Positions 28,403 through 46,549 of a DNA stretch of 50,489 bases are shown here, one piece after another (the stretch's first letter is position 1; each line of letters opens with the position of its first letter). The DNA comes from Halanaerobiales bacterium (GTDB taxonomy: Bacteria > Bacillota > Halanaerobiia > Halanaerobiales > M55B127), in contig JAGXLU010000013.1 of assembly GCA_018334565.1 (NCBI GenBank), positions 1-50,489 of the forward strand. Reading direction: 5' to 3'. The translations under genes and the position numbers were made by a program. Below the pieces are notes generated by a model that worked only from the letters and a program-made list of their open reading frames with translations, was not told the DNA's origin and made no database searches.

Positions 28403-29053
28403 TTTGCCAAACAGATTCCTATATCACAATTTATTGGTGTCACCTGGGGTGCTATGAGTTTAATAGGAGCAGTTTTTGTAGGTATATCGGGTATTATTGC
28501 TGTACCTGAAGCTTTGACTAATACTGAGACAGTCTTTTTATTTTTACTGCAGAAGTTATTTTATCTCTGGTTAGCAGCTATAATGAGTACGATAGATTCA
28601 CAGCTTTTAGTGTCGTCTAGTGTTTTAGCTGAAGATTTTTATAAATTTTTATTAAGGCCTGAAGCGGACAAAAAGAACTACTTTGGGTAAAAGCAGGATA
28701 GCTGTAATATTGATTGCCTTTATAGCCGTATCTTTTGCTCTGTCAGGGGGCATTATATTAGACATTGTATCATCTGCCTGGCAGGATTAGGATCTTCTTT
28801 TGGTCCTGCCATATTGTTAAGTCTTTTTTGGAAAAAGACGACTAGAAACGGAGTGTTAGGAAGTATTATTACTGGTAGTCCAGTTGTTATAATATGGAAA
28901 AACATGTTCGTCTATACAGGCTTATATGAGATTATACCAGGCTTTTTCCTCTCAGCCTTTGTGATCTTTATTATCAGCTACTTTGGTCAGGATCCCTTGC
29001 CTGAAGTTGTAAAGGAATTTGAAAGAGCCATGAAACCGCTTAATAATGAATAA
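28403..29053 (+). pseudogene. putP: truncated, frameshifted sodium/proline symporter (putP remnant)
   Basis: The sequence matches the C-terminal half of E. coli PutP across three frames. The first (from about 28406) reads AKQIPISQFIGVTWGAMSL and LLVSSSVLAEDFYKFLLRP. A second (about 28686-28785) reads GKSRIAVILIAFIAVSFALS and ends IVSSAWQ. A third (about 28787-29053) reads AGLGSSFGPAILLSLFWKKT, TRNGVLGSIITG and GLYEIIPGFF. About 240 N-terminal residues are missing and two frameshifts are present, so it cannot make a working carrier. The bases 28140-28402 upstream hold no gene. It stands directly before an intact proline-catabolism operon, as an intact putP would. Confidence 0.88.
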
Positions 29054-29072
29054 TTAATTTGGGGGGGATTAG

Positions 29073-29381
29073 ATGAGGATAAATAAACATCCGATACTCG
29101 ATTTTAATAGAGGCAAAAAGATTACTTTTCAGTACAAGGGTCAAGAGATTAAAGCTTATCAAGGTGAGACAATTGCTGCAGCTCTTTATGCAGCTGGTAT
29201 AAAAGTATTAAAAAAGAGCAATAAATATCAAAGGCCAAGAGGTCTATTTTGTGCTATAGGGAATTGTGCTTCCTGTTATATGGCTGTAAATGGAATTCCT
29301 CATGTCAAGACTTGTATCACTAAAGTAAAACAAGATATGGTTGTAGAAGAAGAGACTGGAAAAGGTGATATTATTGATTAA
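29073..29381 (+). CDS. [2Fe-2S] subunit of FAD-linked proline dehydrogenase-type complex
   Basis: A 102-residue ferredoxin-fold protein like the N-terminal domain of sarcosine oxidase alpha and HcnA. Cysteines in GLFCAIGNCASCYMAVNG and VKTCITKV match the plant-type [2Fe-2S] set (C-x4-C-x2-C..C). It opens a five-gene set with two flavoproteins, a two-cluster ferredoxin and a BFD-like protein, which is the layout of multi-subunit proline/hydroxyproline dehydrogenases (described in Thermococcales and some bacteria). GGGGGG precedes the ATG. Its end overlaps the next gene by 8 bp. Confidence 0.85.
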   Translation: MRINKHPILDFNRGKKITFQYKGQEIKAYQGETIAAALYAAGIKVLKKSNKYQRPRGLFCAIGNCASCYMAVNGIPHVKTCITKVKQDMVVEEETGKGDIID

Positions 29382-30489
29382 CACAGATCTATTGGTGATT
29401 GGAGGCGGTCCGGCCGGCATGACAGCAGCCTTAAAAGCTGCAAAGAAGGGAGCAGAAGTAATCATTGTGGAAAGATATCACGAACTGGGTGGTCAATTAA
29501 TTAAACAAACTCACCGATTTTTTGGTTCTAAAAACGAACAAGCAGGAACTAGAGGTATTGACATTGCTCAAGGATTAACTAAAGAAATTCAAAACATGAG
29601 TGAGATTAAAGTGCTGACTGAAGCGACCGCCCAGGGATATTATGAAGATAAAATTGTGACTGTGTCTTACCAGAATAAATTTAGAAAAATAAGGGCAAAA
29701 AGAATAATAATAGCCACCGGTGCTTCTGAAAAGATGATGCTTTTTTTAAATAATGATCTGCCTGGTGTATATGGAGCAGGAGCTATTCAGACTTTAATGA
29801 ACCTTTATGGTATATTACCCGGCAAAAAAGTAATAATGGTTGGGTCTGGGAATATAGGGTTGATCGTTAGTTATCAGCTATTACAAGCTGGAGTTGAAGT
29901 TAAAGCAGTTATTGAAGCAGACTCTGAAATTGGTGGTTATTTAGTTCATGCTTCAAAAATTAGAAGAATAGGAGTTCCCATATATACCGGCTACTCTGTG
30001 AAATCCGCAATTGGGGAAAGTTTTGTAAAAGGAGCAGAAATTATAAAATTAGATAGGAACTGGCAGATGATAGCAGGAACAGAAAGATTTATTAAAGCGG
30101 ACACAATTTGTCTAGCAGTTGGTTTAAGACCTTTAGTTAGTCTGTTAATCCAGGCTGACTGCGCGATGGCCTATGTGCCAGAACTGGGAGGAGATGTACC
30201 AATCAGGGATGAGAATTTAAAAACCACCAATGATCAAATCTTTGTTGCAGGTGATGCTGCTGGGATAGAGGAAGCAACTGCAGCTATGTTAGAAGGAGAA
30301 ATAGCTGGTTTAAAGGCAGCAACAGAGATTGGCTATTTAAGTAAAGATGCAATTACAGAAAGCAGAAGATTAAAAAAAGAGCTAAGAAAACTAAGAAATG
30401 GACCAATTAGTAGAAATATTAGAAAAGGTCTCAGTAAAGTTAGAGGTGACGACAATGTTAAGAAAAACAGGTATTCCCACCTCAGATGA
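29374..30489 (+). CDS. FAD/NAD(P)-binding oxidoreductase, alpha-like subunit of proline dehydrogenase complex
   Basis: A 371-residue flavoprotein. VIGGGPAGMTAALKAAKKGA is the FAD motif, followed by the family-typical LGGQLIKQTHRFFGS; VGSGNIGLIVSYQLLQAG is the second dinucleotide motif and FVAGDAAGIEEATAAMLEGE the closing FAD motif. Its relatives are HcnB, opine oxidase alpha and the alpha subunit of archaeal proline dehydrogenase. TTG 29374 is preferred over GTG 29365 because AAAGGTG then sits at the right distance and the protein begins MINTDLLVIGGG. It probably carries electrons from the substrate flavin towards NAD or ferredoxin. Confidence 0.85.
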   Translation: MINTDLLVIGGGPAGMTAALKAAKKGAEVIIVERYHELGGQLIKQTHRFFGSKNEQAGTRGIDIAQGLTKEIQNMSEIKVLTEATAQGYYEDKIVTVSYQNKFRKIRAKRIIIATGASEKMMLFLNNDLPGVYGAGAIQTLMNLYGILPGKKVIMVGSGNIGLIVSYQLLQAGVEVKAVIEADSEIGGYLVHASKIRRIGVPIYTGYSVKSAIGESFVKGAEIIKLDRNWQMIAGTERFIKADTICLAVGLRPLVSLLIQADCAMAYVPELGGDVPIRDENLKTTNDQIFVAGDAAGIEEATAAMLEGEIAGLKAATEIGYLSKDAITESRRLKKELRKLRNGPISRNIRKGLSKVRGDDNVKKNRYSHLR

Positions 30490-30940
30490 TTTGCAATCTG
30501 TGACTCCGGACAAAGAAAGATTATTAGAAGGGCCAGTAGCCATTATTGAATGTTTTAATGAAATTCCCTGTGACCCCTGTTTTTACAGTTGCCCTTTTAA
30601 AGCTATAAAAAAATTTAGTGATATTAATGATAAGCCTGAACTGGACTATAGTAAATGTACAGGCTGTGGTAATTGTATCGCAAGTTGTCCTGGATTAGCT
30701 ATTTTTGTGGTTGATTACACTAAAAATAGACTAAGCTTACCTTATGAGTTTTTGCCATTACCATCCGTAGGTGATAAGGTATGGGGGCTTAACAGAGCTG
30801 GCAAATCTATATGTCAGGTTGAAGTTATAAAGGTTAGAGATCCTGACAAAAATGATAAGACTGCAGTTATTTCTATTAAATTACCCAAAAAATATTTAAT
30901 GGAAGTAAGGCACATAAAAGTTGGTGATCCTAATGAATGA
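30455..30940 (+). CDS. 4Fe-4S dicluster ferredoxin subunit
   Basis: A 161-residue iron-sulfur protein with two cluster motifs, the first split and unusual (CFNEIPCDPCFYSCP) and the second classical (CTGCGNCIASCP). This pattern is like the gamma/delta iron-sulfur subunits of proline and hydroxyproline dehydrogenase complexes. ATG 30455 is chosen from AGAGGTGA just upstream; the frame is open further 5' but inside the flavoprotein gene. The gene overlaps the flavoprotein by 35 bp and the next by 8 bp. The C-terminal 70 residues form a beta-rich extension with no known motif. Confidence 0.82.
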   Translation: MLRKTGIPTSDDLQSVTPDKERLLEGPVAIIECFNEIPCDPCFYSCPFKAIKKFSDINDKPELDYSKCTGCGNCIASCPGLAIFVVDYTKNRLSLPYEFLPLPSVGDKVWGLNRAGKSICQVEVIKVRDPDKNDKTAVISIKLPKKYLMEVRHIKVGDPNE

Positions 30941-31211
30941 GGATAAGATTGTCTGTAGATGTGAGGACATAACGTTAAAAGAATTAAGAGATATGATAGC
31001 TGATGGTTATACTAGACTGGATGAAATAAAGAGGGCTTTGCGTTTAGGAATGGGACCCTGCCAGGGTGATATTTGTCTGGAAATAGCTGCTAGGGAGATA
31101 TGTAGAATGACAGACAAAAAAATGGAAGACATTAAGATGCCTAGCAAAAGACCACCTGTAGCAGGTATTAAGATGAGTGAGTTAGTAGGGGATAATCAAA
31201 ATGAAAAATAA
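30933..31211 (+). CDS. BFD-like [2Fe-2S]-binding protein
   Basis: A 92-residue protein whose cysteines are arranged as in bacterioferritin-associated ferredoxin domains: CRCED near residue 9 and GPCQGDIC near residue 46 (C-x-C..C-x4-C). In related enzymes this domain is fused to the alpha flavoprotein; here it stands alone. ATG 30933 is chosen from GGTG six bases upstream. It overlaps both neighbours by 8 and 11 bp, so the five subunits are probably made in fixed proportion. Confidence 0.85.
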   Translation: MNEDKIVCRCEDITLKELRDMIADGYTRLDEIKRALRLGMGPCQGDICLEIAAREICRMTDKKMEDIKMPSKRPPVAGIKMSELVGDNQNEK

Positions 31212-32346
31212 GGCAGAAATAGTTATCATAGGTGGGGGAGTGATTGGTGCTTCTATTGCGTATAGTTTAGCAGATAAGGGGATGAAAGACATAGTTGTTT
31301 TGGAAAAAAACTATATAGCAAGTGGTTCTACGGGAAGTTGTGGTGCAGGCATAAGACAACAGTGGGGAACAAAGATGAACTGCATATTGTCTAAAAAAAG
31401 TATGGAAATATTTGAAAACTTGAACGAGATCCTAAAGGTCAAAAGGGATATTGAATTAAAACAGGGCGGTTATTTATTATTGGCATATTCTGAAAAGGAA
31501 TTTAAGCAGTTTAAAGAAAATATCAAATTACAGAATAGTATAGGTATACCTTCCCAGCTCTTGACTGTTAAAGAAGCCAAAGAAATTGTACCTCAACTAA
31601 ATGGTGAGGGTATAAAGGGAGCCACATATTGCCCTACAGATGGGCATATCAATCCTTTTCGTGTAAATCAAGCTTATGTAGAAGCTGCTAGACGCAAAAG
31701 CGTGCAATTTTATACTTACACAAGTGCGCAAGATATTATAACACAAAATAATGAAATCAAAAGTGTTGTTACCGATCGAGGTGTAATTGAAACTAATAAA
31801 GTTGTAAATGCTGCAGGCGGTTTTTCTAAAGAGGTTAGTTTGATGGCAGGAATTGATATACCTACTAAGTCAGAAAGACATCAGATATTGGTGACAGAAC
31901 AAGTTAATCCTATCTTAAAACCAATGGTGATGTCTTTTTCATATAATATTTACTGTCAACAGATTCCGGATGGAAGTTTTGTTATGGGTTATGGTGATCC
32001 TGATGAGCAGTATAGTCATAATATAAAATCAAGCTGGCAGTTTTTAGAAGAAATGGCAAAGAAAGCAACCTATCTTTTACCTTTTTTAAAGGATATAAGG
32101 GTAATAAGGCAGTGGGCAGGTTTATATAATATAACACCTGATGCTCAACCAATTTTGGATGCGTCTGATGAGTTGAAGGGATTTTTTATGGCAGTCGGGT
32201 TTAGTGGTCATGGATTTATGATAGCACCTTTCACTGGTGTTTTGATGGCTGAGATGATTTTAGGCGAAAAGTTGAGCATGAATATAAAACTTGATTTAAA
32301 GAGGTTTGAGCATGATAGACTAATTTTGGAACCTTCAGTAGTTTAA
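31201..32346 (+). CDS. FAD-dependent amine oxidoreductase, beta subunit (proline dehydrogenase-like)
   Basis: A 381-residue flavoenzyme of the DAO/sarcosine oxidase beta family, the substrate-oxidising subunit of the complex. VIIGGGVIGASIAYSLADKG is the FAD motif; SGSTGSCGAGIRQQWGT, KSERHQILVTEQ and GFSGHGFMIAPFTGVLMAE are the landmark segments. Known relatives oxidise L-proline, D-hydroxyproline, sarcosine or glycine betaine derivatives. L-proline is the best guess because the product-processing enzyme PruA follows 20 bp later and a putP remnant precedes the operon. It overlaps the upstream gene by 11 bp. Confidence 0.87.
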   Translation: MKNKAEIVIIGGGVIGASIAYSLADKGMKDIVVLEKNYIASGSTGSCGAGIRQQWGTKMNCILSKKSMEIFENLNEILKVKRDIELKQGGYLLLAYSEKEFKQFKENIKLQNSIGIPSQLLTVKEAKEIVPQLNGEGIKGATYCPTDGHINPFRVNQAYVEAARRKSVQFYTYTSAQDIITQNNEIKSVVTDRGVIETNKVVNAAGGFSKEVSLMAGIDIPTKSERHQILVTEQVNPILKPMVMSFSYNIYCQQIPDGSFVMGYGDPDEQYSHNIKSSWQFLEEMAKKATYLLPFLKDIRVIRQWAGLYNITPDAQPILDASDELKGFFMAVGFSGHGFMIAPFTGVLMAEMILGEKLSMNIKLDLKRFEHDRLILEPSVV

Positions 32347-32366
32347 TAAAAAAGGGAGGATTTATA

Positions 32367-34001
32367 ATGAGTGCAAATGATATTTTTAGTTTAAAACGTC
32401 CGGAGAATGAACAAATCTATGGTTATGAAGCGGGCAGTCAAGAAAGAAAAAGAATCAAAGCAGGATTGAATGCATTAAAAGAAAATCCAGTTGAAATTCC
32501 CCTTATCATTGATGGCAAAGAGGTAAAAACCGATAATATAAGGGAAATAAGGGCTCCCCATGATCATAATTTAATATTGGGTAAATATCATCAGGCAGGC
32601 AAAGAAGAAATAAATCGAGCTATTGATACTTCACTCAAAGCGAAAGAAGTATGGGAGAATACCTCCTGGGAAAAAAGAGCCTCAATATTTTTAAAAGCGG
32701 CTACATTATTGGCAGGACCGAAAAGAACAGAAATAAATGCAGCTACAATGTTATCCCAGAGCAAGAACGTCTTTCAGGCTGAAATAGATGCGGCCTGTGA
32801 ACTTATTGATTTTCTTCGTTTCAATGCATATTTTATGTCTGAGATTTATCAAATACAACCGAGCTCCACACCGAAGATTTTAAATAGAATAGAATATCGA
32901 CCACTGGAAGGATTTATATTTGCTGTTTCACCTTTTAATTTTACTTCTATTGGTGGAAATCTTCCTACAGCACCAGCTTTGATGGGTAATACTGTAATAT
33001 GGAAACCTGCGTCAGCAGCAGTATATTCTAATTACTTTTTCATGAAGATATTAATGAGGGCTGGTCTGCCGGATGGGGTTATCAACTTTATTCCGGGCCA
33101 GGGTTCTAAATTAGGCCCCATGATTTTAAAAAGGCCTGAATTAGCAGGTGTTCACTTTACAGGTTCTGTAGATACACTTAATCAGATGTTTAAAGAAGTG
33201 GGTGCAAATATAGATAGGTATAATACTTATCCCCGTATAGTAGGTGAAACTGGTGGTAAAGACTTTGTCTTTGCTCACAAATCAGCTGATAGGGATGAAT
33301 TAATTACTGCTCTGCTCAGAGGAGCTTTTGAATATCAAGGTCAAAAATGTTCAGCAGTTTCTAGATCATATATTTCAAAATTAGTTTGGGAGGATATTAG
33401 AGAGGAGCTTGTTAAAAAAACAGAAAATCTTAAAATGGGTCCTGTTGATGACTTCACAAATTTTATTAATGCAGTTATAGATGAAAATGCTTTTGAGAAA
33501 ATCAAAAAATATATTGAATATGCAAAAAGATCCGATTCTGCCCAAGTAATCGCCGGAGGAGAATGTAATAAAGCAGAAGGATATTATATTACTCCCACAA
33601 TAATTTTAACAAACAATCCCAGGTTTAGAACCATGACAGAAGAAATATTCGGACCGGTTTTGACTATTTATATATATGATGATAAAAAATATGAAGAAGC
33701 TTTAAGTTTATGTGATCAAACATCACCTTATGGTTTAACCGGTAGTATTTTTGCCAAAGACCGGAAAGCTGTAGCATTTGCAGAAAAGACCTTGAAACAT
33801 GCTGCTGGGAACTTCTATATAAATGACAAACCAACAGGTGCGGTAGTAGGTCAACAGCCTTTTGGAGGTTCGAGAAAATCTGGTACAAATGATAAGGCAG
33901 GCAGCCAGTGGAACTTAATGAGATGGGTATCACCGCGGTCAATTAAAGAAAACTTAAACCCACCTGTTAAATATATGTATCCATTTATGAAAGAGAAATA
34001 A
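32367..34001 (+). CDS. pruA: L-glutamate gamma-semialdehyde dehydrogenase (1-pyrroline-5-carboxylate dehydrogenase)
   Basis: Oxidises glutamate-gamma-semialdehyde (from P5C) to glutamate with NAD+. It is a 544-residue member of the aldehyde dehydrogenase superfamily, of the PruA length class. VGETGGKDFVFAH holds the general-base Glu and EYQGQKCSAVSR the catalytic Cys. The cofactor strand is VSPFNFTSIGGNLPTAPALMGNTV (read as VSPFNFTSIG), and EEIFGPVLTIYIY plus GQQPFGGSRKSGT close the active site. AAAGGGAGG precedes the ATG. As the second step of proline oxidation it fixes the meaning of the upstream operon. A strong terminator follows. Confidence 0.94.
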   Translation: MSANDIFSLKRPENEQIYGYEAGSQERKRIKAGLNALKENPVEIPLIIDGKEVKTDNIREIRAPHDHNLILGKYHQAGKEEINRAIDTSLKAKEVWENTSWEKRASIFLKAATLLAGPKRTEINAATMLSQSKNVFQAEIDAACELIDFLRFNAYFMSEIYQIQPSSTPKILNRIEYRPLEGFIFAVSPFNFTSIGGNLPTAPALMGNTVIWKPASAAVYSNYFFMKILMRAGLPDGVINFIPGQGSKLGPMILKRPELAGVHFTGSVDTLNQMFKEVGANIDRYNTYPRIVGETGGKDFVFAHKSADRDELITALLRGAFEYQGQKCSAVSRSYISKLVWEDIREELVKKTENLKMGPVDDFTNFINAVIDENAFEKIKKYIEYAKRSDSAQVIAGGECNKAEGYYITPTIILTNNPRFRTMTEEIFGPVLTIYIYDDKKYEEALSLCDQTSPYGLTGSIFAKDRKAVAFAEKTLKHAAGNFYINDKPTGAVVGQQPFGGSRKSGTNDKAGSQWNLMRWVSPRSIKENLNPPVKYMYPFMKEK

Positions 34002-34013
34002 AGGTGAATCCTT

Positions 34014-34179: not shown

Positions 34180-34386
34180 ATGTCGAAGAAAGGTAAGGTT
34201 AAAATTACTCATCCAGAACGATGTAAGGGTTGTGAAATTTGTGTAATGTACTGCCCTACAGATGTACTGGTAGTAAAAAAAGGTCAAATAACCATTACCG
34301 ATATTGATAATTGTGTTGGCTGTTATAATTGTGAATTAAGTTGCCCGGATTTTGTATTAGAGGTGGTGGAAAATAATGAGAGATAG
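34180..34386 (+). CDS. korD: 2-oxoglutarate:ferredoxin oxidoreductase, delta (ferredoxin) subunit
   Basis: A 68-residue bacterial-type ferredoxin with two [4Fe-4S] motifs: CKGCEICVMYCP and CVGCYNCELSCP. It is the electron-exit subunit of the four-gene KorDABC complex and the first gene of its operon. AAGGAGC precedes the ATG; the stop overlaps korA by 11 bp. The preceding 120 bp (34060-34179) are A+T-rich and should hold the promoter, but no consensus pair is clear. Confidence 0.92.
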   Translation: MSKKGKVKITHPERCKGCEICVMYCPTDVLVVKKGQITITDIDNCVGCYNCELSCPDFVLEVVENNER

Positions 34387-35509
34387 AATAAAATTACTGC
34401 AGGGTGATGAAGCAGTTGTGGAAGGAGCTATTGCAGCAGGAGCTAAATTCTTTGCAGGATATCCGATAACACCTGCCTCTGAAATAGCAGAAGGTTTAGC
34501 AGAAAGACTTCCTATTTATGGAGGAAAATTTATTCAGATGGAAGATGAATTGGCCAGTATGGCCTGTGTTATTGGTGCTTCGTTAAGTGGTTTGAAGTCA
34601 ATAACCGCAACCAGTGGGCCAGGATTTTCATTAAAACAGGAAAATCTTGGTTTGGGTATGATGATTGAAATCCCCTGTGTTGTAGTTAATGTTCAGCGAG
34701 TTGGACCATCAACAGGTTTACCTACTTCTCCTTCTCAGGGAGACGTTATGCAGGCCAAATGGGGAACTCACGGAGACCATCCCGTGATTGCTTTAGCGCC
34801 ATCTTCGGTCAAAGAAACTTTTGAATTGACGATTACGGCATTTAATTTTGCAGAACGGTTTAGGACACCTGTTATTTTACTTTTAGATGAGATTGTGGGA
34901 CATATGAGAGAAAAAGTTGTTTTACCAAATGAAGAAGATATAGAAATTTGGAATCGCAAAAAACCTGAAGTTGGGCCGGAAGATTTTAACCCTTATCAAG
35001 AAACCGATGGTTTAGTTCCTCCCATGCCCAATTATGGTGAGGGATATAGATACCATACTACAGGACTTTTCCATGATAAAACTGGTTTTCCCCGGGGTAC
35101 AAACGAGGATGCCAAAAATTTAATGGATAGGTTAATGGCAAAAATAGAGAGTAATATGGATATAATAAGTCTTTATGAAGAAGATATTAGAGATGATGAT
35201 GAAATTATTGTATTAGCTTATGGATCAACAATGCGTTCTGCAATAAATGCTATAAGCCAAGCCAGAAAAGCTGGAATCAAAGCAGGTTGGATTAAGTTAA
35301 AGACAATTTGGCCTTTCCCGGCAGATTATATAAAAGAAGTGGGGAAAAGAGCCAAGGCAATAATAATACCAGAATTAAATAGAGGACAAATTATTAAAGA
35401 AGTTAGAGAAAATATATTTGGAAATGCAGAGGTTCATGGCATTAATAAATATGATGGAACTTTGATTAAACCAGAAGAAATCCTTAATATGATTCAGGAG
35501 GTTAAATAG
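34376..35509 (+). CDS. korA: 2-oxoglutarate:ferredoxin oxidoreductase, alpha subunit
   Basis: A 377-residue subunit, not fused to gamma, unlike the enzyme at 17969. GDEAVVEGAIAAGAKFFAGY and PITPASEIAEGLAERLP form the typical N-terminal domain, ATSGPGFSLKQENLG the TPP-interacting region and VQRVGPSTGLPTSPSQGD the conserved substrate loop. The KorDABC order is usual for 2-oxoglutarate oxidoreductase, and the downstream methylmalonyl-CoA mutase genes, which consume or make succinyl-CoA, support that substrate. It may also work in the CO2-fixing direction. The ribosome site GGTGG lies inside korD. Confidence 0.92.
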   Translation: MRDRIKLLQGDEAVVEGAIAAGAKFFAGYPITPASEIAEGLAERLPIYGGKFIQMEDELASMACVIGASLSGLKSITATSGPGFSLKQENLGLGMMIEIPCVVVNVQRVGPSTGLPTSPSQGDVMQAKWGTHGDHPVIALAPSSVKETFELTITAFNFAERFRTPVILLLDEIVGHMREKVVLPNEEDIEIWNRKKPEVGPEDFNPYQETDGLVPPMPNYGEGYRYHTTGLFHDKTGFPRGTNEDAKNLMDRLMAKIESNMDIISLYEEDIRDDDEIIVLAYGSTMRSAINAISQARKAGIKAGWIKLKTIWPFPADYIKEVGKRAKAIIIPELNRGQIIKEVRENIFGNAEVHGINKYDGTLIKPEEILNMIQEVK

Positions 35510-36331
35510 ATGGGCTATAAAATTGATGAATATTTAAGGCAGGATAAATTGCCTCATATTTGGTGCCCCGGCTGTGGACATGGTACAATCATGGGTAATT
35601 TAATTAGAGGGATTGATAAAGCTAATTTAGACCCCGACAAGACGGTTGTAGTATCCGGCATTGGTTGTTCAGGTCGTGCGAGCGGTTATATGAATTTTGA
35701 TACTTTACATACTACACATGGTAGAGCTATTGCTTTTGCCACTGGAATTAAGTTAGCTAATCCCAAACTTAATGTTATTGTTATAACAGGTGATGGAGAT
35801 GGGGCTGCCATAGGTGGAAACCACTTAATACATGGGGCCAGAAGGAATATAGACTTGACTGTTGTATTAATGAATAACCATATCTATGGGATGACTAGTG
35901 GGCAATTTTCTCCGATGACTCCCACCGGTGATAATGCAACTACAACCCCTTATGGTAATATAGATCAAAACTTTGATCTGGCAGGTTTAACAAAGGCTTC
36001 AGGGGCCTCTTTTATTGCCCGAGGCACAGCCTATAACACACGTCAGCTGATAGAAATTTTTGCAGAAGGATTACTGCACACTGGTTTTTCTTTTATAGAG
36101 GCTATCAGCCAGTGTCCGGTTAATTATGGCCGCAGGAATGGACTAAGCTCAGCAGTTGACATGCTTAAATGTCAAAGAGACTCCTCTGTTAATATCAGAA
36201 AATGGGATAGTTTATCTGAAGAAGAGAAAAAAGGTAAATTTCCAACAGGTGTGCTATATAAAGAGGATAAAAGAGAGTATACTGAGATGTATCAAGAAAT
36301 AATTGATTCTGTTCAGGAGGAGGCCAAGTAA
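35510..36331 (+). CDS. korB: 2-oxoglutarate:ferredoxin oxidoreductase, beta subunit
   Basis: A 273-residue TPP subunit. IWCPGCGHGTIMGN gives two cluster cysteines, VSGIGCSGRASGY the third and ISQCPVNYGRRNG the fourth, a complete set, unlike the beta subunit at 19653-20507. GDGDGAAIGGNHLIH is the TPP/Mg motif. It starts directly after korA behind CAGGAGGTT, and its last base is shared with the korC start. Confidence 0.93.
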   Translation: MGYKIDEYLRQDKLPHIWCPGCGHGTIMGNLIRGIDKANLDPDKTVVVSGIGCSGRASGYMNFDTLHTTHGRAIAFATGIKLANPKLNVIVITGDGDGAAIGGNHLIHGARRNIDLTVVLMNNHIYGMTSGQFSPMTPTGDNATTTPYGNIDQNFDLAGLTKASGASFIARGTAYNTRQLIEIFAEGLLHTGFSFIEAISQCPVNYGRRNGLSSAVDMLKCQRDSSVNIRKWDSLSEEEKKGKFPTGVLYKEDKREYTEMYQEIIDSVQEEAK

Positions 36332-38554: not shown

Positions 38555-38950
38555 GTGGATAATTTTATAAAAGTACTAATTGCCAAACCGGGATTAGATG
38601 GACATGATAGAGGTGCAAAGGTTATAGCCCGGGGATTAAAAGAAGCGGGGATGGAAGTAGTGTATACTGGTTTAAGGCAGACGCCTGAACAGATTGTAAG
38701 AAGTGCTATTCAGGAAGATGTAGATGTTATTGGACTGAGCATTCTTTCTGGTGCTCATAGCTATTTGTTTCCTGAAATAATGAACAGACTAAAAAAAGCA
38801 GATCACAGTGATGTGGCAGTAATAGCAGGAGGAATTATACCCGAAGATGATCACAAAAAATTAAAAGAACTTGGGATAAAAGCCATTTTTCAACCAGGTA
38901 CTCCCATTTCGAAGATTGTTGATTTTATTGAAAATGAGGTACAAAAATAA
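38555..38950 (+). CDS. methylmalonyl-CoA mutase small (B12-binding) subunit
   Basis: A 131-residue cobalamin-binding domain. The base-off motif DGHDRGAKV (D-x-H-x-x-G, His about residue 17) is near the front, GLSILSGAHSYLFPEIM follows, and AGGIIPEDD with FQPGTPISKI closes the nucleotide-tail pocket. It forms the active mutase with the preceding subunit. The start is GTG behind AGGGGAGG. Its last base is the first of the meaB start codon. Confidence 0.95.
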   Translation: MDNFIKVLIAKPGLDGHDRGAKVIARGLKEAGMEVVYTGLRQTPEQIVRSAIQEDVDVIGLSILSGAHSYLFPEIMNRLKKADHSDVAVIAGGIIPEDDHKKLKELGIKAIFQPGTPISKIVDFIENEVQK

Positions 38951-39894
38951 TGGAAGATAATATTGATCAACTGTATGCAGATATTCAAAGAGGCAACGAA
39001 AATACTATAGCAAAAGCTATATCCATGGTAGAAGACGGAACAAAAGACGCTGTAAAATTAATGAAAAAAGTCTATAGAAATATCGAACCTGCATACTTGG
39101 TAGGAATATCGGGGCCTCCTGGGTCTGGCAAAAGCACAATAACCCAGAGCATAGTTCAATTATGGAGGAAAGAAAATATTAAAGTTGCTATTATAGCAAT
39201 TGATCCAACAAGCCATTTCAGCGGTGGAGCTCTCCTGGGTGACAGGATAAGGATGGATAAAATTTCTACAGACCGAGGTGTTTTTATCAGAAGCATGGCT
39301 ACTAGAGGTTCTCTAGGTGGTCTTAATTCTTCTATTTATGATACTGTGTTGATTTTTTCTCTGGCTGGATATGAGTATATTATTATAGAAACTGTTGGTG
39401 TAGGGCAAAATGAAATAGATATAGTTAAATTGGCGGATACTACTATCTTTGTCACGGTTCCAGAAGCAGGCGATGAAATTCAAGCATATAAGGCAGGGCT
39501 TATGGAAGCAGGCGATATATTTGTTGTTAATAAAGCAGATCGTCCAAAATCAGAACAGATGGTATTAACTATAGAACAATTGGTTTCCTTTAGGGGAGAT
39601 AAAGAGATCTGGAAGCCGCCAGTTTTAGCCACAAATGCCTTGCAAGATGAAGGAATTACTGATATAAAAAAAAGTATTAATGATCACCATATATACTTAG
39701 AAGAGAAAGACCTATTGCAGAAGAACCGTAGAGAAGTAATTAGAGCTCAGATGATAAATTTAATGGAAAAGAAATTGAACGAAAAATTCATAAGTCCTAT
39801 ATTAAAAGACCAAAAGTTTTTCAAACATATTGAGCTAATATGCAAAAAAAAGGAAGACCCTTACAGCGTAGTAAATGAATTGTTATCATTATAA
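38950..39894 (+). CDS. meaB: methylmalonyl-CoA mutase-associated GTPase MeaB
   Basis: G3E-type GTPase that loads and protects the mutase's adenosylcobalamin. Walker A is GPPGSGKST (residues 55-63), followed by DPTSHFSGGALLGDRIRM, FIRSMATRGSLGGL (switch region), ETVGVGQNEIDI and NKADRP for guanine. The length, 314 residues, is normal. It starts at the last base of the small-subunit gene, so the three are coupled. No cobalamin riboswitch was recognised upstream of this operon. Confidence 0.95.
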   Translation: MEDNIDQLYADIQRGNENTIAKAISMVEDGTKDAVKLMKKVYRNIEPAYLVGISGPPGSGKSTITQSIVQLWRKENIKVAIIAIDPTSHFSGGALLGDRIRMDKISTDRGVFIRSMATRGSLGGLNSSIYDTVLIFSLAGYEYIIIETVGVGQNEIDIVKLADTTIFVTVPEAGDEIQAYKAGLMEAGDIFVVNKADRPKSEQMVLTIEQLVSFRGDKEIWKPPVLATNALQDEGITDIKKSINDHHIYLEEKDLLQKNRREVIRAQMINLMEKKLNEKFISPILKDQKFFKHIELICKKKEDPYSVVNELLSL

Positions 39895-39912
39895 TGAGGG
39901 GGGAATCAAATA

Positions 39913-40305
39913 ATGAAAATTGATCATATTGGAATAGCTGTTAAAGATATTCAAAACTCGCTCAAATTTTATAGGGATGTATTAGGCTTAGAGTTTAATG
40001 GAATCGAAAAGTTAAATGATAGAGGTTTACAGGTTGCATTTTTACAGATAGGTGAAAGTGAGATTGAACTACTGGAGCCTATCTCAGAAGATAGTACTAT
40101 TTTTAAATTTATAGAAAAAAAGGGTGAGGGGATTCATCACATAGCTCTAGAGGTAGATAATGTAGATAATAAGATAGATGAGATAAATAAATTGGGGGCT
40201 AAGATTATTGGCAAGCCAAGCTCAGGGGCAGGAGGCAAAAAAATAGTCTTCATACATCCAAAATCAACAAGTGGTGTTTTAATGGAATTGTGTCAACACC
40301 AATAA
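39913..40305 (+). CDS. mce: methylmalonyl-CoA epimerase
   Basis: A 130-residue VOC-superfamily enzyme that interconverts the 2R and 2S forms of methylmalonyl-CoA. Metal ligands are placed as in the family: His4-5 region KIDHIGIAV, SEIELLEP, GIHHIALEVDN and GVLMELCQH. GAGGGGGG precedes the ATG, 18 bp after meaB. It is the last gene of the operon running from korD. An epimerase is required if methylmalonyl-CoA is passed to a 2S-specific decarboxylase or carboxyltransferase, which supports a propionate-forming or propionate-using route. Confidence 0.93.
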   Translation: MKIDHIGIAVKDIQNSLKFYRDVLGLEFNGIEKLNDRGLQVAFLQIGESEIELLEPISEDSTIFKFIEKKGEGIHHIALEVDNVDNKIDEINKLGAKIIGKPSSGAGGKKIVFIHPKSTSGVLMELCQHQ

Positions 40306-40577: not shown

Positions 40578-41843
40578 ATGTCAAATGAGGTATATAATCC
40601 ATACCAAGAATTACTAAAAACTATAAACGAAGCTGGTCAACAACTAGGACTTACAAGAGATGATTATAAAATATTGGAGAAACCAGATAGAGAATTAAAG
40701 GTTTCGATTCCAATTGAAAAAGATGATGGAAGTATTGAAGTATTTGATGGCTATAGAGTACAGCACTGTAATTCCAGAGGGCCTTATAAAGGTGGTGTGC
40801 GTTATCATCCCAAAGTAGATATTGATGAGATAAGGGCTTTAGCAGGCTGGATGACATTAAAATGTTCACTGGTTGATATTCCCTATGGTGGCGCCAAGGG
40901 TGGGATTCAATGCGATCCCAGTCAATTATCCAAATCAGAGCTTAAAAAGATAACAAGAAGATATACAACTATGATTGAGCCTATTATAGGTATTGATAAA
41001 GACATACCAGCACCAGATGTTAATACTAATGCACAGATTATGAGCTGGATTTATGATACATATAGTATGATTAAGGGGCATAACATTCCTGGTATTGTAA
41101 CTGGTAAACCGAGGATAATTGAGGGGTGTTTGGCAAGAGAAGGTGCAACTGGACGAGGGGTTATGATTACTGTAGAAAATCTATTTCAAAAGTTAAGTAA
41201 AAATCTAGAAGATATTAAAATTGCTGTGCAAGGCTTTGGTAATGTAGGACAGGTAGCAGCTAAATTGTTACAAGAAAAAGGATGTAGGATAGTAGCTGTT
41301 AGTGATGTTTCTTGCGGATTATATAATGAAGATGGTTTAGATATAAATAAATTAATAGAATTTGTAGGTTCTGAGAGAAATTACTTAACAGAATTTGTGA
41401 ATAATAACGGTACAAAAAAAATAACTAATGGAGAATTATTGAGATCAGATATAGATGTATTAATACCAGCTGCCTTAGAAAATCAGATTACAGCAGAGGT
41501 GGCTTTAGATATAAAAGCAGATTTCATAGTAGAAGCAGCCAATGGTCCAACAACAAGAGAAGCAGATTCAATTTTAGCAGAAAGAGATATAACAATTATG
41601 CCTGATATCTTAGCGAATGCAGGTGGAGTTATAGTATCATATTTTGAGTGGGTACAAAACAAAGAGGCTTCAAGATGGGAAGATGAAGAAACAAATAAAA
41701 AATTAAGAAATTTGTTAACTAAAGCGTTTAAACAGGTTTGGGAGACCTATGAAGAACAACAGGTTTCACTAAGAATGGCTGCATATATGGTTGCTTTAAA
41801 CAGGATAATAGAAACCAAAAAAATCAGGGGTATTTTCCCATAA
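40578..41843 (+). CDS. Glu/Leu/Phe/Val-family dehydrogenase, copy 1 (probable glutamate dehydrogenase)
   Basis: A 421-residue cytoplasmic enzyme for reversible oxidative deamination of an amino acid, most likely glutamate to 2-oxoglutarate. GPYKGGVRYHP and LKCSLVDIPYGGAKGG hold the substrate and catalytic lysines, PAPDVNTNAQIMSW the catalytic Asp, and VQGFGNVGQVAAKLL the dinucleotide fold. Both lysines usually seen in glutamate dehydrogenases are present. GGGAGTG precedes the ATG. In context it supplies 2-oxoglutarate to KorDABC. Its tandem neighbour is a diverged paralogue. Confidence 0.92.
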   Translation: MSNEVYNPYQELLKTINEAGQQLGLTRDDYKILEKPDRELKVSIPIEKDDGSIEVFDGYRVQHCNSRGPYKGGVRYHPKVDIDEIRALAGWMTLKCSLVDIPYGGAKGGIQCDPSQLSKSELKKITRRYTTMIEPIIGIDKDIPAPDVNTNAQIMSWIYDTYSMIKGHNIPGIVTGKPRIIEGCLAREGATGRGVMITVENLFQKLSKNLEDIKIAVQGFGNVGQVAAKLLQEKGCRIVAVSDVSCGLYNEDGLDINKLIEFVGSERNYLTEFVNNNGTKKITNGELLRSDIDVLIPAALENQITAEVALDIKADFIVEAANGPTTREADSILAERDITIMPDILANAGGVIVSYFEWVQNKEASRWEDEETNKKLRNLLTKAFKQVWETYEEQQVSLRMAAYMVALNRIIETKKIRGIFP

Positions 41844-41908
41844 AGAGACATTAAGTATATTTATTAAATAAAATTACTCTTAACTAATAAACAGGGGGAA
41901 TTTGTCAA

Positions 41909-43171
41909 ATGGGTAAATCTACTATATATGAAAATGTGTTAACACAGATTAGTAATGCTGCAGATATTCTCGATTTGGATGATCAGGTTAGAGAATTATT
42001 GCATGAACCTATGAGAACGCTGACAGTGTCAATCCCGGTCAAAATGGATGATGAAAGTATCCATGTATTTAAAGGATTTCGTTGTCAGCATAATGATGTA
42101 TTGGGTCCTACCAAGGGTGGAATAAGGTTTCATCCGCAGGTTTGTGAGGATGAAGTGAAAGCTTTAGCAGCTTGGATGACTTTTAAATGTTCTTTAGTTG
42201 GAATACCATATGGCGGAGCCAAAGGTGGTGTATTGGTCAATCCTAAAGAACTATCCAGAAATGAATTAGAAAGATTAAGTAGAGGTTTTATTCAAGCTAT
42301 ATCCCCTATTATTGGTCCTGACAAAGATATTCCCGCTCCTGATGTTTATACAGATGCCCAGGTAATGAGTTGGTTCATGGATGAGTTTTCCAAATTGAAA
42401 GGTGTAAACACCCCAGGTTTGGTTACCGGTAAACCTGTGGTATTAGGTGGTTCTTTTGGGCGCCATTCAGCCACAGCTCGTGGTGTTATGTATATAACCA
42501 TAGAAGCAGCTAAGGCAATAGATCTTGATCTTAATGGGGCAACAGTAGCTGTGCAGGGTTTTGGTAATGCTGGTAGTTTTTCAGCTAAATTTTTGCATGA
42601 ACAGGGCTGTAAAATTGTTGCCGCTAATGATTCAAAAGGAGGCATATATTGTCAAGATGGTTTCAATCCAGTAGATGCAGCCAAACACAAAGAAGAGTCA
42701 GGTGGTTTAAAAGGATTTCAAGGTTGTGATTATATTAGTAATAAGGACCTTTTAACGATGGATGTAGATATTCTAATTCCAGCTGCCTTAGAAAATCAAA
42801 TTACAGAGGATAATGCTGCAAATATAAAAGCAAGAATGATCATAGAAGCTGCTAATGGCCCAACAACTCCTGAAGCAGATGAGATATTATTTAAAAAAGA
42901 AATAATGATTGTACCGGATATTTTAGCAAATGCAGGTGGAGTAACTGTTTCTTACTTTGAATGGGTTCAGAATCTAGCTAATTATTATTGGTCTAAAGAT
43001 GAGGTAGACAGAAAATTAGAAGAGATAATGGTTGAGGCCTTTGAGAAAGTATATAATACTCACATAGATATGGATGTTAATATGAGGGTAGCGGCTTTTA
43101 TAGTTGCAATCAAAAGGTTAACAGAAGCTATGAAGGCCAGAGGTTGGGTATACAATGACCATAAATGTTAA
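41909..43171 (+). CDS. Glu/Leu/Phe/Val-family dehydrogenase, copy 2 (probable glutamate dehydrogenase)
   Basis: A 420-residue paralogue of the preceding gene, 65 bp downstream, with the same motifs: GPTKGGIRFHP, FKCSLVGIPYGGAKGG, PAPDVYTDAQVMSW and VQGFGNAGSFSAKFL. The copies differ widely in the region after the dinucleotide fold (this one has an insertion around GFNPVDAAKHKEESGGLKG, given in part) and in the substrate-adjacent GGSFGRHSATARG versus EGCLAREGATGRG. This second form is closer to standard catabolic glutamate dehydrogenases such as RocG/GudB. CAGGGGGAA precedes the ATG. Confidence 0.92.
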   Translation: MGKSTIYENVLTQISNAADILDLDDQVRELLHEPMRTLTVSIPVKMDDESIHVFKGFRCQHNDVLGPTKGGIRFHPQVCEDEVKALAAWMTFKCSLVGIPYGGAKGGVLVNPKELSRNELERLSRGFIQAISPIIGPDKDIPAPDVYTDAQVMSWFMDEFSKLKGVNTPGLVTGKPVVLGGSFGRHSATARGVMYITIEAAKAIDLDLNGATVAVQGFGNAGSFSAKFLHEQGCKIVAANDSKGGIYCQDGFNPVDAAKHKEESGGLKGFQGCDYISNKDLLTMDVDILIPAALENQITEDNAANIKARMIIEAANGPTTPEADEILFKKEIMIVPDILANAGGVTVSYFEWVQNLANYYWSKDEVDRKLEEIMVEAFEKVYNTHIDMDVNMRVAAFIVAIKRLTEAMKARGWVYNDHKC

Positions 43172-43504: not shown

Positions 43505-45355
43505 TTGCAATTAAACAAATCTAATCAAAAAAAGTTAGACAGATTAAAGAATCAAAAGGTAGTCGAACTGCTTGAATTTGCAGTTGATCTATGTAAACCA
43601 AAAAACATCTCAATTATTGATGATAGTAAAGGAGATATTCAATATGTTCGACAACTAGCTCTCAAAACTGGTGAGGAAAAAGAGCTTGATATAGAAGGTC
43701 ATACCTATCACTTTGATGGTTATAATGATCAGGCACGTGATAAAAAAAATACAAGGTACCTGGTGGAAGAAGAATTAGATTTGGGTTTAGATATTAATAC
43801 TATTAATAGAAAGGAAGGTTTAGACGAAGTCTTTTCTTATCTTGATGGCAGTATGAAAAACAAGGAAATGCTAGTAAGGTTTTTCTCCTTAGGACCGAAT
43901 CAATCTAATTTTAGTATTCCGGCCATGCAAATTACAGATTCAAGTTATGTTGCCCATAGTGAAGATATATTATATCGACAAGGGTTTGAAGATTTCGAAA
44001 AACTTAAAGGGAAAGAGGATTTCTTTTTTTTCTTACATTCAGCTGGGAAATTAGAACAGGGTGTAAGTGCTGAAACTGATAAAAGAAGAATATATATTGA
44101 CTTAAAAACAAATAGGGTTTATTCTGTCAATAACCAGTATGCTGGTAATAGTCTTGGATTAAAGAAATTGGCGTTTAGATTGGCGATTAGAAAAGCCGCA
44201 AAAGAAGGTTGGATGGCTGAACACATGTTTATATCGGGAGTTAAGGGTCCTAATAACAGAAAGACATATTTTACAGGTGCTTTCCCCAGTGGATGTGGGA
44301 AAACAAGTACGGCTATGATTCCCGGGCATACTATAGTGGGTGATGATATTGCTTACTTAAAGTTAAAAGGACCGGATGTAAAAGCGGTCAATGTTGAAAG
44401 TGGGGCATTTGGTATAATAAGAGATGTAAATTCAGAAGATGATCCAGTGATATACAAAACACTTACCACTCCCCGAGAACTTATTTTTTCAAACATTCTT
44501 GTTAAAGATGGTAAACCTTATTGGCTGGGTATGGGTAAAGACATTCCCAATAAAGGAGTTAATTTTTCCGGCAAATGGAATAAAGGCAAGACTGATGATC
44601 AGGGTAATGAAATACCTCCTGCTCATAAAAATGCTAGATATACAATCAAAATCAGTGATTTGGATAACTGTGACAAATATTATGATAAAAAAAAGGGTGT
44701 CAGTGTAAAAGGTATGATATTTGGAGGTAGAGATTCTGACACATCTGTACCGGTAGCTGAAACACTTAGTTGGGCTCATGGTGTTTTTATGGCTTCTTCT
44801 TTAGAATCGGAAACTACATCAGCAACTTTAGATAAACAGGGTCAAAGAAAGCATAATCCCATGGCTATTCTTGATTTTTTGTCAGTACCTATTAGTGATT
44901 ACATTGATAACTATTTAAAGTTCGGGAATAAAGCAAAAAATAAACCGGGTATATTTACAGTGAATTACTTTCTTAAAGATTCTAAAACCGGAGAATATCT
45001 TAACGGCATGCTTGATAAAAAGATATGGATGTTGTGGATGGAAAAAAGAATGCATGACGAACTTAAAGCAATTAGATCACCAGTCGGGTTTTTACCCTAT
45101 TATGAGGATTTACGTCAGTTATTTACTCGTTATTTAGGTTGTGATTATACAGAATTAGAGTATGTTGAACAGTTTTCCATTAGAATTGAAAATTATCTTG
45201 CAAAATATAAAAGAATTGAAAATATATTCGAAAATATTCCGGATTTACCAAAAACCTTTAAAAAAGAATTGAATAACCAGATACTTAGACTCAAAGAAGC
45301 GAGAAAAAAATATAGTGATAGCAATATATCACCATTTAAACTAAAAAATTATTAA
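43505..45355 (+). CDS. pckG: phosphoenolpyruvate carboxykinase, GTP-type
   Basis: Interconverts oxaloacetate and phosphoenolpyruvate. The length (616 residues) and motifs match the GTP-dependent family: FPSGCGKTSTAMIPG is the kinase-1a P-loop with the reactive Cys, VGDDIAYL the metal-binding kinase-2 motif, KGMIFGGRDSDTSVPVAE followed by SWAHGVFMASSLESETTSA is the family core, and FTVNYFLKD lies near the guanine pocket. The start is TTG behind GGGGGTTAAG. It lies 12 bp before an aminotransferase gene, suggesting a path from aspartate via oxaloacetate to PEP. Confidence 0.9.
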   Translation: MQLNKSNQKKLDRLKNQKVVELLEFAVDLCKPKNISIIDDSKGDIQYVRQLALKTGEEKELDIEGHTYHFDGYNDQARDKKNTRYLVEEELDLGLDINTINRKEGLDEVFSYLDGSMKNKEMLVRFFSLGPNQSNFSIPAMQITDSSYVAHSEDILYRQGFEDFEKLKGKEDFFFFLHSAGKLEQGVSAETDKRRIYIDLKTNRVYSVNNQYAGNSLGLKKLAFRLAIRKAAKEGWMAEHMFISGVKGPNNRKTYFTGAFPSGCGKTSTAMIPGHTIVGDDIAYLKLKGPDVKAVNVESGAFGIIRDVNSEDDPVIYKTLTTPRELIFSNILVKDGKPYWLGMGKDIPNKGVNFSGKWNKGKTDDQGNEIPPAHKNARYTIKISDLDNCDKYYDKKKGVSVKGMIFGGRDSDTSVPVAETLSWAHGVFMASSLESETTSATLDKQGQRKHNPMAILDFLSVPISDYIDNYLKFGNKAKNKPGIFTVNYFLKDSKTGEYLNGMLDKKIWMLWMEKRMHDELKAIRSPVGFLPYYEDLRQLFTRYLGCDYTELEYVEQFSIRIENYLAKYKRIENIFENIPDLPKTFKKELNNQILRLKEARKKYSDSNISPFKLKNY

Positions 45356-45367
45356 GGGGGGGATACC

Positions 45368-46549
45368 TTGAAATTATCCAAAAGAGCTCAAAAAGTTAGT
45401 GCTTCCTTAACACTGGCAATTAGTGCTAAAGCAAAAAAGCTAAAAGAAGCTGGAGAACATGTGATAAGCTTTGGGGCAGGTGAGCCAGATTTTGATACTC
45501 CCCAGTATATTTGTGATGCGGCTCGAGAGGCTCTCGAGATAGGTTTTACCAGATACACACCGGTTTCCGGTTATGAAGATATCAAAGAAGCTATAATTTA
45601 TAAATTCAAAAATGATAATGATTTACTTTATAAAAATGATCAAATTATAGTTTCCAATGGAGCAAAGCATTCTCTTTTTAATACCTTTCAGGCCATTTTA
45701 AATCCAGGTGATGAGGTCATAATACCTGTTCCCTACTGGGTAACTTATCCAGAAACTGTGAAAATGAGCGGAGGTAAACCGGTATTTTTAGAAACTAATG
45801 AAAAAGATAACTTTAAAATAAGTATTGATAAATTTAAAAATATTATTAATACAAAGACAAAAGCATTGATATTGAACACTCCCAGTAATCCTACTGGAAG
45901 CATTTATACAAAAAAGGAATTAGAAAAGATAGCTGATATTGCTGTAAAAAATGAAATTGTTGTTGTTTCAGATGAAATTTATGAAAAATTAATTTATGAT
46001 GAAAAAGAACATGTAAGTATAGCAGCCATTAATGATGACATAAAAGATTTAACAATTGTAATTAATGGTGTTTCTAAGGCTTATGCTATGACCGGTTGGA
46101 GAATTGGTTATGCAGCGGGTCCAAAAGATATTATCAAAATAATGACTAATATACAAAGCCATTCAACTTCAAATCCCAATTCCATAGCTCAGTATGCGAG
46201 TAATGCTGCTTTAAGAGGAGACCATAGTTTTATGAATGAAAGAAGGGATAAATTTATTGAGCGAAGAGACTATATGTATAAAAAAATCAATTTAATACAA
46301 GGGATTTCCTGTTTGAAACCAGAAGGAGCTTTCTATATTTTAATGAACATAAAAGAGATAATAGATGGTGGCGAAATAGATGGTTCGTTTAGTTTTGCTG
46401 AAAAATTATTGGATAAAAAAAGAGTTGCTGTTGTACCTGGGATTGCATTTGGTGTTGATAATTTCATTAGACTTTCTTATGCTAATTCTTTGAATAATAT
46501 CAAAGAAGGTCTTAATAGAATAGAAAAGTTTGTAAATGAAATTCAATAA
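45368..46549 (+). CDS. class I pyridoxal-phosphate aminotransferase (aspartate aminotransferase-like)
   Basis: A 393-residue fold-type I aminotransferase of the AspB/AspC Ib group. SFGAGEPDFDTPQYI binds near the substrate, NTPSNPTGSIYTKKEL contains the PLP-contacting Asn, VSDEIYEKLIY the Asp/Tyr pair, and GVSKAYAMTGWRIGYAAG the Schiff-base Lys, with the substrate Arg in FIRLSYANS. The start is TTG behind AAGGGGGGG, just after the pckG stop. It likely moves amino groups between aspartate and glutamate, linking glutamate oxidation to oxaloacetate. Confidence 0.92.
   Translation: MKLSKRAQKVSASLTLAISAKAKKLKEAGEHVISFGAGEPDFDTPQYICDAAREALEIGFTRYTPVSGYEDIKEAIIYKFKNDNDLLYKNDQIIVSNGAKHSLFNTFQAILNPGDEVIIPVPYWVTYPETVKMSGGKPVFLETNEKDNFKISIDKFKNIINTKTKALILNTPSNPTGSIYTKKELEKIADIAVKNEIVVVSDEIYEKLIYDEKEHVSIAAINDDIKDLTIVINGVSKAYAMTGWRIGYAAGPKDIIKIMTNIQSHSTSNPNSIAQYASNAALRGDHSFMNERRDKFIERRDYMYKKINLIQGISCLKPEGAFYILMNIKEIIDGGEIDGSFSFAEKLLDKKRVAVVPGIAFGVDNFIRLSYANSLNNIKEGLNRIEKFVNEIQ

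Follow-up and report, generated by a model that had tools for sequence, protein, structure and literature searches.

The locus considered here, positions 28403-46549 of a 50,489-nucleotide stretch of Halanaerobiales DNA (the window, which is contig C73 of a genome of 2.16 Mb in 94 contigs, 97% complete), raises the question of why genes for a proline-dehydrogenase-type complex, PruA, 2-oxoglutarate:ferredoxin oxidoreductase (Kor) and methylmalonyl-CoA mutase should stand together (that Kor is of the 2-oxoglutarate type being putative), and of where the carbon passing through them would go. An earlier sequence-only reading had placed all of these genes on one strand; the open reading frames (ORFs) and family profiles confirmed this, and all the named genes were found on the plus strand in the order that it gave. 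In the present study, 38 genomes of the order were searched (G000-G037, of which G000 is that of the window; L numbers denote fetched loci). The block is a real and conserved cluster for proline and glutamate catabolism, a new arrangement of known chemistry, and it probably functions, judged from its genes, as an operon for the breakdown of these two amino acids that would be read as a single transcript.

The core of the block consists of Kor and the mutase. KorA, the alpha subunit (34376-35509), exceeded the cut-off of PRK08659, a 2-oxoacid model (567 against 411), and its first PDB match was 1yd7, followed by the 2-oxoglutarate synthase 8ys5. KorB (35510-36331) and KorC (36331-36888) fell below the cut-offs of their models (PRK09628, 355.7 against 364; PRK08537, 193.8 against 235), and KorD, a ferredoxin-type delta subunit (34180-34386), was recognised as an ORF and from its place in the cluster. 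The large, catalytic subunit of the mutase (36830-38536; TIGR00641, 843.6 against 303.8) probably has its real start at an internal ATG near 36869, as judged by eye. A Tyr and an Arg of this subunit align with Tyr89 and Arg207 of 1req (Propionibacterium numbering), which we take to be the substrate positions that part methylmalonyl-CoA mutases from isobutyryl- and 2-hydroxyisobutyryl-CoA mutases, and on these features the large subunit is assigned to methylmalonyl-CoA mutase. The small, B12-binding subunit (38555-38950; TIGR00640, above cut-off) is followed by the mutase-associated GTPase MeaB (38950-39894) and methylmalonyl-CoA epimerase (39913-40305), both of which pass curated cut-offs (TIGR00750, 296.6 against 240.75; TIGR03081, 157.7 against 114.95).

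A mutase gene was present in 17 of the 38 genomes, and KorA and KorB adjoined it in 16 of these 17, all 16 loci having been fetched. In the 17th, G033, the C-terminal part of the mutase lies at the end of a contig of 4,515 bases and the stretch before it is cut off; the contig continues with the small subunit, meaB, epimerase, mmdA, oadG and a biotin carrier. Outside the Halanaerobiales, KorA or KorB was found at none of 34 mutase loci in the stretches available, several of which were cut short by contig ends. This distribution within and outside the order shows that the genes of the block did not come together by chance. Comparison of gene order in relatives, which the sequence-only reading had proposed as a check, thus upheld the Kor-mutase linkage, and it also revealed decarboxylase genes inside the relatives' clusters. 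The nearest relatives of the mutase were found in the Halanaerobiales metagenome-assembled genomes (MAGs) L001 (96%; genome G034) and L002 (83%; the sister genome G037) and in Halothermothrix sp. L003 (69%).

The extent of the cluster differs among genomes. The proline genes were contiguous with kor in seven genomes of two families (G000, G034, G025, G026, G027, G028 and G030), the proline gene of G026 being cut by a contig end; in G037 one contig ends about 120 bases past pruA and another starts inside korD. After the epimerase, the window carries glutamate dehydrogenase 1 (40578-41843; NF041398, 490.8 against 620), glutamate dehydrogenase 2 (41909-43171; NF040817, 566.7 against 750), GTP-type phosphoenolpyruvate (PEP) carboxykinase (43505-45355; PRK04210, above cut-off) and an aspartate-type aminotransferase (45368-46549; NF041091, 437.6 against 550). 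Only genomes of the window's genus were found to have the last three in the cluster (all three of its mutase-bearing genomes), the contigs of G017, G026 and G030 ending too early for them to be seen. KorB, KorC, both glutamate dehydrogenases, the aminotransferase and the sarcosine-oxidase-like subunits treated below score under their cut-offs, yet the family to which each belongs is plain.

Phylogenetic analysis placed the Kor-mutase proteins of G022, a member of family f4 (L090, G022:C37), away from those of the other f4 members and together with those of Halothermothrix L003 (100/100), both branches being long, and horizontal transfer is a possible explanation. A common origin of the joined arrangement of family f1 and that of f5 was also considered; the tree does not decide it.

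Proline genes and proline entry

Five genes at 29073-32346 encode the dehydrogenase complex. Its catalytic FAD subunit (31201-32346) is of the L-proline dehydrogenase beta type, with 1y56_B as best PDB match at 281.8 bits, twice the score of the next, sarcosine oxidase beta (140.2 bits). The PDB label of 1y56 reads sarcosine oxidase; we regard this structure as the Pyrococcus horikoshii L-proline dehydrogenase. The FAD/NAD-binding subunit (29365-30489; TIGR01372, 173.5 bits, below cut-off) was not decisive, sarcosine oxidase alpha 2gag_A scoring 86.0 bits and 1y56_A 84.6 bits. The remaining subunits are a 2Fe-2S protein like the N-terminal part of SoxA (29073-29381; TIGR01372, 45.6 bits, far below cut-off), a 4Fe-4S ferredoxin-type protein identified by family profile (30398-30940) and a small cysteine-containing ORF that by eye is BFD-like with a 2Fe-2S site (30921-31211), the latter two occupying the same place in relatives. 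All five genes were present at each of the nine examined loci uncut by contig ends. Moreover, pruA, encoding glutamate-gamma-semialdehyde dehydrogenase (32367-34001; TIGR01236, 786 against 613.6 bits), lay on the same strand and within about 2.5 kb in 10 of 10 loci (the window, L001, L076, L078, L080-L082 and L092-L094), and PutP-like sequence was found near the dehydrogenase genes in the window, L001, G037 and G001. With the beta subunit of 1y56 as nearest relative and with its linkage to pruA and putP, the complex has the features expected of an L-proline dehydrogenase.

It is improbable that the complex is instead a sarcosine, dimethylglycine or other amine dehydrogenase with pruA as a neighbour by chance. 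The subunits do match the sarcosine oxidase alpha and beta profiles TIGR01372 and TIGR01373, all below cut-off, the FAD subunit is by the scores above slightly nearer to sarcosine oxidase alpha than to 1y56_A, and breakdown of glycine betaine would be plausible for a halophile; however, the twofold higher score of the catalytic subunit with 1y56_B, the constant presence of pruA on the same strand and the PutP-like sequence near four of the complexes all speak for proline.

The putP gene itself, for a sodium/proline symporter, survives in the window as a C-terminal remnant (28403-29053; SSF profile positions 237-406) consisting of two ORFs (28454-28690 and 28814-29053), with one TAA within the SSF profile match. 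In the sister genome G037, an intact PutP of 500 amino acids stands at the corresponding place (TIGR02121, 645.5 against 515.5). Transporters of NSS type and TRAP-like transporters, identified by eye, adjoin the cluster in relatives (L078 1813-3291 and L083 18732-19874) and look as if they had been substituted for PutP.

Probable direction of the pathway and proposed exit of the carboxyl group

In the proposed route, the five-gene flavin and iron-sulfur dehydrogenase would oxidise proline and PruA would form glutamate, from which glutamate dehydrogenase or transamination would give 2-oxoglutarate. Kor would convert 2-oxoglutarate to succinyl-CoA with reduction of ferredoxin, and the B12 mutase, guarded by MeaB, would act with the epimerase to yield (S)-methylmalonyl-CoA. 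The biotin carboxyltransferase MmdA and a biotin carrier would then take up the carboxyl group and leave propionyl-CoA; the carboxyl group would be released via the OadB sodium pump and/or handed to pyruvate to give oxaloacetate, which the operon's PEP carboxykinase and aminotransferase would use. The energy of propionyl-CoA would be conserved by way of acetate kinase, and electrons would exit via hydrogenase and Rnf. Acetate kinase is present in the window's genome, and so are RnfC and [FeFe]-hydrogenase-type genes, a search for which the sequence-only reading had suggested.

The five genomes of the window's genus (62 to 97% complete) gave no match to biotin carboxylase (PF02785), and by the same search no pyruvate carboxylase was found there. 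An ATP-driven, assimilatory propionyl-CoA carboxylase appears unlikely in the genus because of this absence, which, together with the oxidative proline genes in the cluster, favours the catabolic direction. The succession of steps from proline through glutamate, 2-oxoglutarate and succinyl-CoA to methylmalonyl-CoA that had been proposed earlier thus finds support in the genes. Mutase-bearing genomes of families f4 and f5 either lack biotin carboxylase (G021 and G022) or carry it within ORFs of 801 to 1187 amino acids, which by their length are assigned to the pyruvate-carboxylase kind; G007 and G033 have a biotin carboxylase of AccC length. Operation of the whole pathway in reverse, from propionyl-CoA via methylmalonyl-CoA and succinyl-CoA to reductive carboxylation by Kor and on to glutamate or proline, for assimilation or osmolyte supply, is very unlikely. 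The mutase, the epimerase, Kor and glutamate dehydrogenase could in principle act in either direction, the PEP carboxykinase and aminotransferase of the operon would fit such a run, and the argument from biotin carboxylase fails for G007 and G033. In the window's genus, however, the missing biotin carboxylase leaves no ATP-driven propionyl-CoA carboxylase to feed it, the proline dehydrogenase complex and PruA in the same cluster are oxidative, and relatives' clusters include a decarboxylase of the sodium-pump type.

For the catabolic direction, an enzyme is needed that removes the carboxyl group. The decarboxylase had been noted as missing from the window; elsewhere the genome contains a candidate in an MmdA-OadG-biotin carrier-OadB set at contig C31 (L039), whose MmdA is the genome's only match of that family, and relatives carry such genes in the cluster. 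An MmdA-type gene was found inside the cluster in eight of the 17 mutase-bearing genomes (G007, G010, G012, G015, G017, G021, G023 and G033), as well as in the Halothermothrix MAG L003, and oadG, biotin carrier and oadB were all detected with it in five of the eight (G010, G015, G017, G021 and G023). MmdA is encoded elsewhere in the other nine (G000, G034, G037, G022, G025-G028 and G030), the cluster of G030 itself being cut in the epimerase. The C31 set scored above the cut-offs for sodium-pumping biotin decarboxylases (TIGR01109, 482.7 against 190.6; TIGR01195, 44.7 against 36.05), and the biotin-carrier protein beside its MmdA scored below those of its models. The MmdA reached 884.9 bits against the subfamily cut-off of 998.8 of TIGR01117 and is termed MmdA-like here; MmdA of G023:C5 (868.7) and the cluster-borne MmdA of L003 (874.2) were also below this cut-off, and because the latter falls short too, the model does not part the MmdA clades. 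Its best PDB match was 1vrg, labelled propionyl-CoA carboxylase beta (739 bits), and the 12S subunit 1on3 scored 659 bits. The exit step probably falls to an MmdA-like enzyme.

Two clades were resolved in the MmdA tree, one of 16 rows of the cluster kind (100/98), including copies from genomes without mutase, and one of 15 other rows (100/100); the window's genome has the second alone. In the five genomes of the window's genus and in G022 (L130-L134 among the loci), the gene of the second clade lies beside genes for PucR, AllH and an NCS2 permease (uracil-type) and, contig permitting, AllF (FdrA), AllG and a cyclase, mostly with a carbamate-kinase-like gene as well. That of G025 stands in a xanthine dehydrogenase/adenine deaminase cluster (L125), G024:C2 being alike by eye, an XdhFAD-like gene is near in G027 and G030, and that of G023:C5 comes after fab genes; neighbours were read for all members but G024:C14, G026, G028 and G029. 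The C31 MmdA is thus a candidate decarboxylase whose neighbours point to another or additional role. In L039 and L130-L134 the entire MmdA-OadG-carrier-OadB set, of the sodium-pump decarboxylase type, is embedded among the PucR, AllH and related genes. Only five columns of the alignment part the two clades fully; one of these is the first residue, and none has a known meaning. The position occupied by Asp in 6ybp and Ile in 6ybq, presumably a substrate position, was tried as a clade marker and rejected, as it holds Ile in all 15 members of the second clade and one of Ile, Val and Leu in each of the other 16; in the outside rows it is Asp (2), Val (6) or Ala (1).

An oxaloacetate decarboxylase set (OadG-like ORF, carrier, OadB and OadA) is encoded on contig C64 (L075 6058-9218). 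A stop inside this OadA, the only one of the genome, was considered and rejected, the ORF being intact at 442 amino acids. The contig also carries dnaA- and gyrase-like genes, these and the OadG-like ORF having been recognised by eye.

Transfer of the carboxyl group of methylmalonyl-CoA to pyruvate, with oxaloacetate passing on to PEP and aspartate, would make sense of the genes peculiar to the window's genus. Pyruvate is suggested as acceptor because no pyruvate carboxylase was found, because PEP carboxykinase and aminotransferase were seen in the cluster in this genus alone, and because G037 has a 5S/OadA-type gene between glutamate dehydrogenase 2 and PEP carboxykinase; no remnant of a 5S gene was detected in the corresponding interval of the window (tblastn, E 1e-5). 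A more far-reaching version, in which methylmalonyl-CoA of the genus would serve mainly as a carboxyl donor via MmdA, both to pyruvate (for oxaloacetate and PEP) and to acetyl-CoA (for malonyl-CoA and lipids), is rather doubtful. It would agree with the lack of PF02785 and of accA/accD-type matches in the genus, FabD being present, with the finding of a 5S/OadA-type gene as neighbour of the G037 PEP carboxykinase and with a fabH-fabD-fabF-mmdA-carrier run in G023. The C31 set, however, retains OadB and OadG as a pump would, such sets also occur in the mutase-less G024 and G035, and 11 of the 28 genomes with MmdA have no mutase, so that methylmalonyl-CoA cannot be the general donor.

The reading of the block as a proline and glutamate operon with an MmdA-type exit has to be weighed against several findings that tell the other way. 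The top PDB score of the mutase fell on 2-hydroxyisobutyryl-CoA mutase (583 bits, against 547 for the best methylmalonyl-CoA mutase), an identity rejected despite that score, as that enzyme has Ile and Gln at the specificity positions. The local PutP is decayed, and the sole other SSF symporter found is PanF-like and below cut-off; proline may enter by another route, or glutamate or peptides may be the real substrate. Furthermore, three genomes have the proline dehydrogenase beta gene but no mutase, namely G001 and G024 (each 95% complete or more) and G029 (76% complete), the first two indicating that proline genes can do without the mutase. The C31 MmdA is below the subfamily cut-off, its clade stands beside purine/oxamate-type or fab genes wherever its surroundings were examined, and MmdA is also found in the mutase-less genomes counted above.

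MmdA and the distribution of acetyl-CoA carboxylase

The distribution of MmdA across the order suggests a second, more surprising role. Matches of AccA/AccD type were found in 12 of the 38 genomes (G001-G009, G031, G032 and G033), the same 12 that have biotin carboxylases of AccC length, and an MmdA-type match was found in all 26 genomes without these genes (all of f1, all of f4, and f5 except G031). The match consists only of fragments in G016 and G018; these extend to the C-terminal end of the profile, which AccA/AccD matches do not reach, and are assigned to MmdA on that ground. Among the 12 genomes with acetyl-CoA carboxylase genes, MmdA was present in two, G007 and G033, both mutase-bearing. 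A Fisher test gave 1.4e-7 for this opposition, a value that treats the genomes as independent, which they are not, and the weight rests on the pattern across families. FabD was found in 37 of the 38 genomes, the exception being G001, which has acetyl-CoA carboxylase genes.

The opposition of MmdA and acetyl-CoA carboxylase genes is a strong pattern, uncorrected for relatedness. G014, a single contig of 2,309,262 bases, has one MmdA, no mutase and no AccA/AccD match, and its biotin carboxylase occurs only within an ORF of 1160 amino acids. In all five genomes of the window's genus, one contig holds both MmdA and fabD, about 6 kb apart; in family f5 they are found on separate contigs. Both MmdA types are present in G023, and the second is part of a run fabH-fabD-fabF-mmdA-biotin carrier followed by carbamate kinase (C5, L137 2296-7881), a locus at which no OadB or OadG was detected. 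MmdA may be considered a putative replacement for acetyl-CoA carboxylase. A possible explanation, though less likely than not, is that acetyl-CoA carboxylase was lost in f1, f4 and most of f5, that an MmdA-type transcarboxylase makes malonyl-CoA with a carboxyl group taken from another carboxylated metabolite, be it oxaloacetate or the operon's methylmalonyl-CoA, and that in the window's genus the fermentation encoded by the operon feeds gluconeogenesis and fatty acid synthesis without ATP-driven fixation of CO2 on biotin.

The available text on Halanaerobium praevalens reports its cell fatty acids and, with reference to Oren and Gurevich 1993, activity of its fatty acid synthetase (PMC3156398), and that on the Thermotogales describes missing acetyl-CoA carboxylase genes with an acyl-CoA carboxyltransferase present (PMC3199775). 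In the open-licence literature, no report was found on loss of acetyl-CoA carboxylase in the Halanaerobiales or on MmdA as its replacement. Across the order, every genome in which an MmdA-type protein is the sole carboxyltransferase of its family lacks acetyl-CoA carboxylase genes, and the pattern, if true, would amount to the replacement of a nearly universal essential enzyme.

Neighbouring genes and comparison with known systems

Elsewhere in the window, a second 2-oxoacid:ferredoxin oxidoreductase, with a fused gamma-alpha subunit (TIGR03710, above cut-off) and a beta subunit, is encoded at 17969-20507, and a protein of 903 amino acids without an NCBIfam match at E 0.001 is encoded on the minus strand directly 3' of the operon (46732-49443). 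Rfam searches at gathering scores gave no match in the window, L003, L076, L078 or L083, and the idea of a regulatory RNA was dropped.

The cluster represents a candidate route, conserved in the order, by which anaerobes of hypersaline habitats would convert proline, an osmolyte, and glutamate to propionate, hydrogen and a sodium gradient. Conversion of glutamate to propionate by way of methylmalonyl-CoA is also known from Thermanaerovibrio acidaminovorans and Gelria glutamica; for the former, no paper was found in the open-licence literature. The available account of the Petrimonas mucosa genome describes the route from glutamate through 2-oxoglutarate, succinyl-CoA and methylmalonyl-CoA to propionate, sharing with the present proposal glutamate dehydrogenase, Kor, the mutase, the epimerase, a CoA carboxyltransferase and Pta/Ack, and it names proline as a possible feeder (PMC7768429). 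It differs in that the annotation of its exit enzyme reads propionyl-CoA carboxylase and in that the same account reports no proline dehydrogenase complex, pruA or PEP carboxykinase in the cluster (PMC7768429). The pathway of Veillonella and Propionigenium, as far as it is set out in the available text, is alike in its mutase, epimerase and biotin-dependent sodium-pumping decarboxylase, as in several Halanaerobiales clusters, whereas Propionigenium is fed with succinate via a CoA-transferase and not with 2-oxoglutarate via Kor (PMC8473912).

Within the order, propionate is recorded in the available texts for H. praevalens on glucose (PMC3156398) and for H. polyolivorans supplied with propylene glycol (PMC10536098), in neither of them as a product of amino acids, and a further text on Halanaerobium mentions propionate and putP (PMC13340142). 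None of the three, in the parts available, mentions methylmalonyl-CoA. No report of a route from proline or glutamate to propionate via methylmalonyl-CoA in the Halanaerobiales was found in the open-licence literature, as far as its text was available. The suggestion that the fermentation is undescribed accordingly holds for the order and within that literature; its chemistry is known from P. mucosa.

Two further systems bear on the individual parts of the proposal. As in the transcarboxylase of Propionibacterium (12S/5S/1.3S), the genome has a 12S match, the C31 MmdA, and also OadA/5S-like and biotin-carrier genes; unlike there, the genes lie in two separate clusters and OadB pump genes are present. 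The archaeal L-proline dehydrogenase (1y56) resembles the present complex in its catalytic beta subunit and weakly in its FAD alpha subunit, whereas the complex described here has its 2Fe-2S and FAD parts on separate genes, possesses an extra ferredoxin subunit and is encoded at a locus joined to the pruA-kor-mutase genes.

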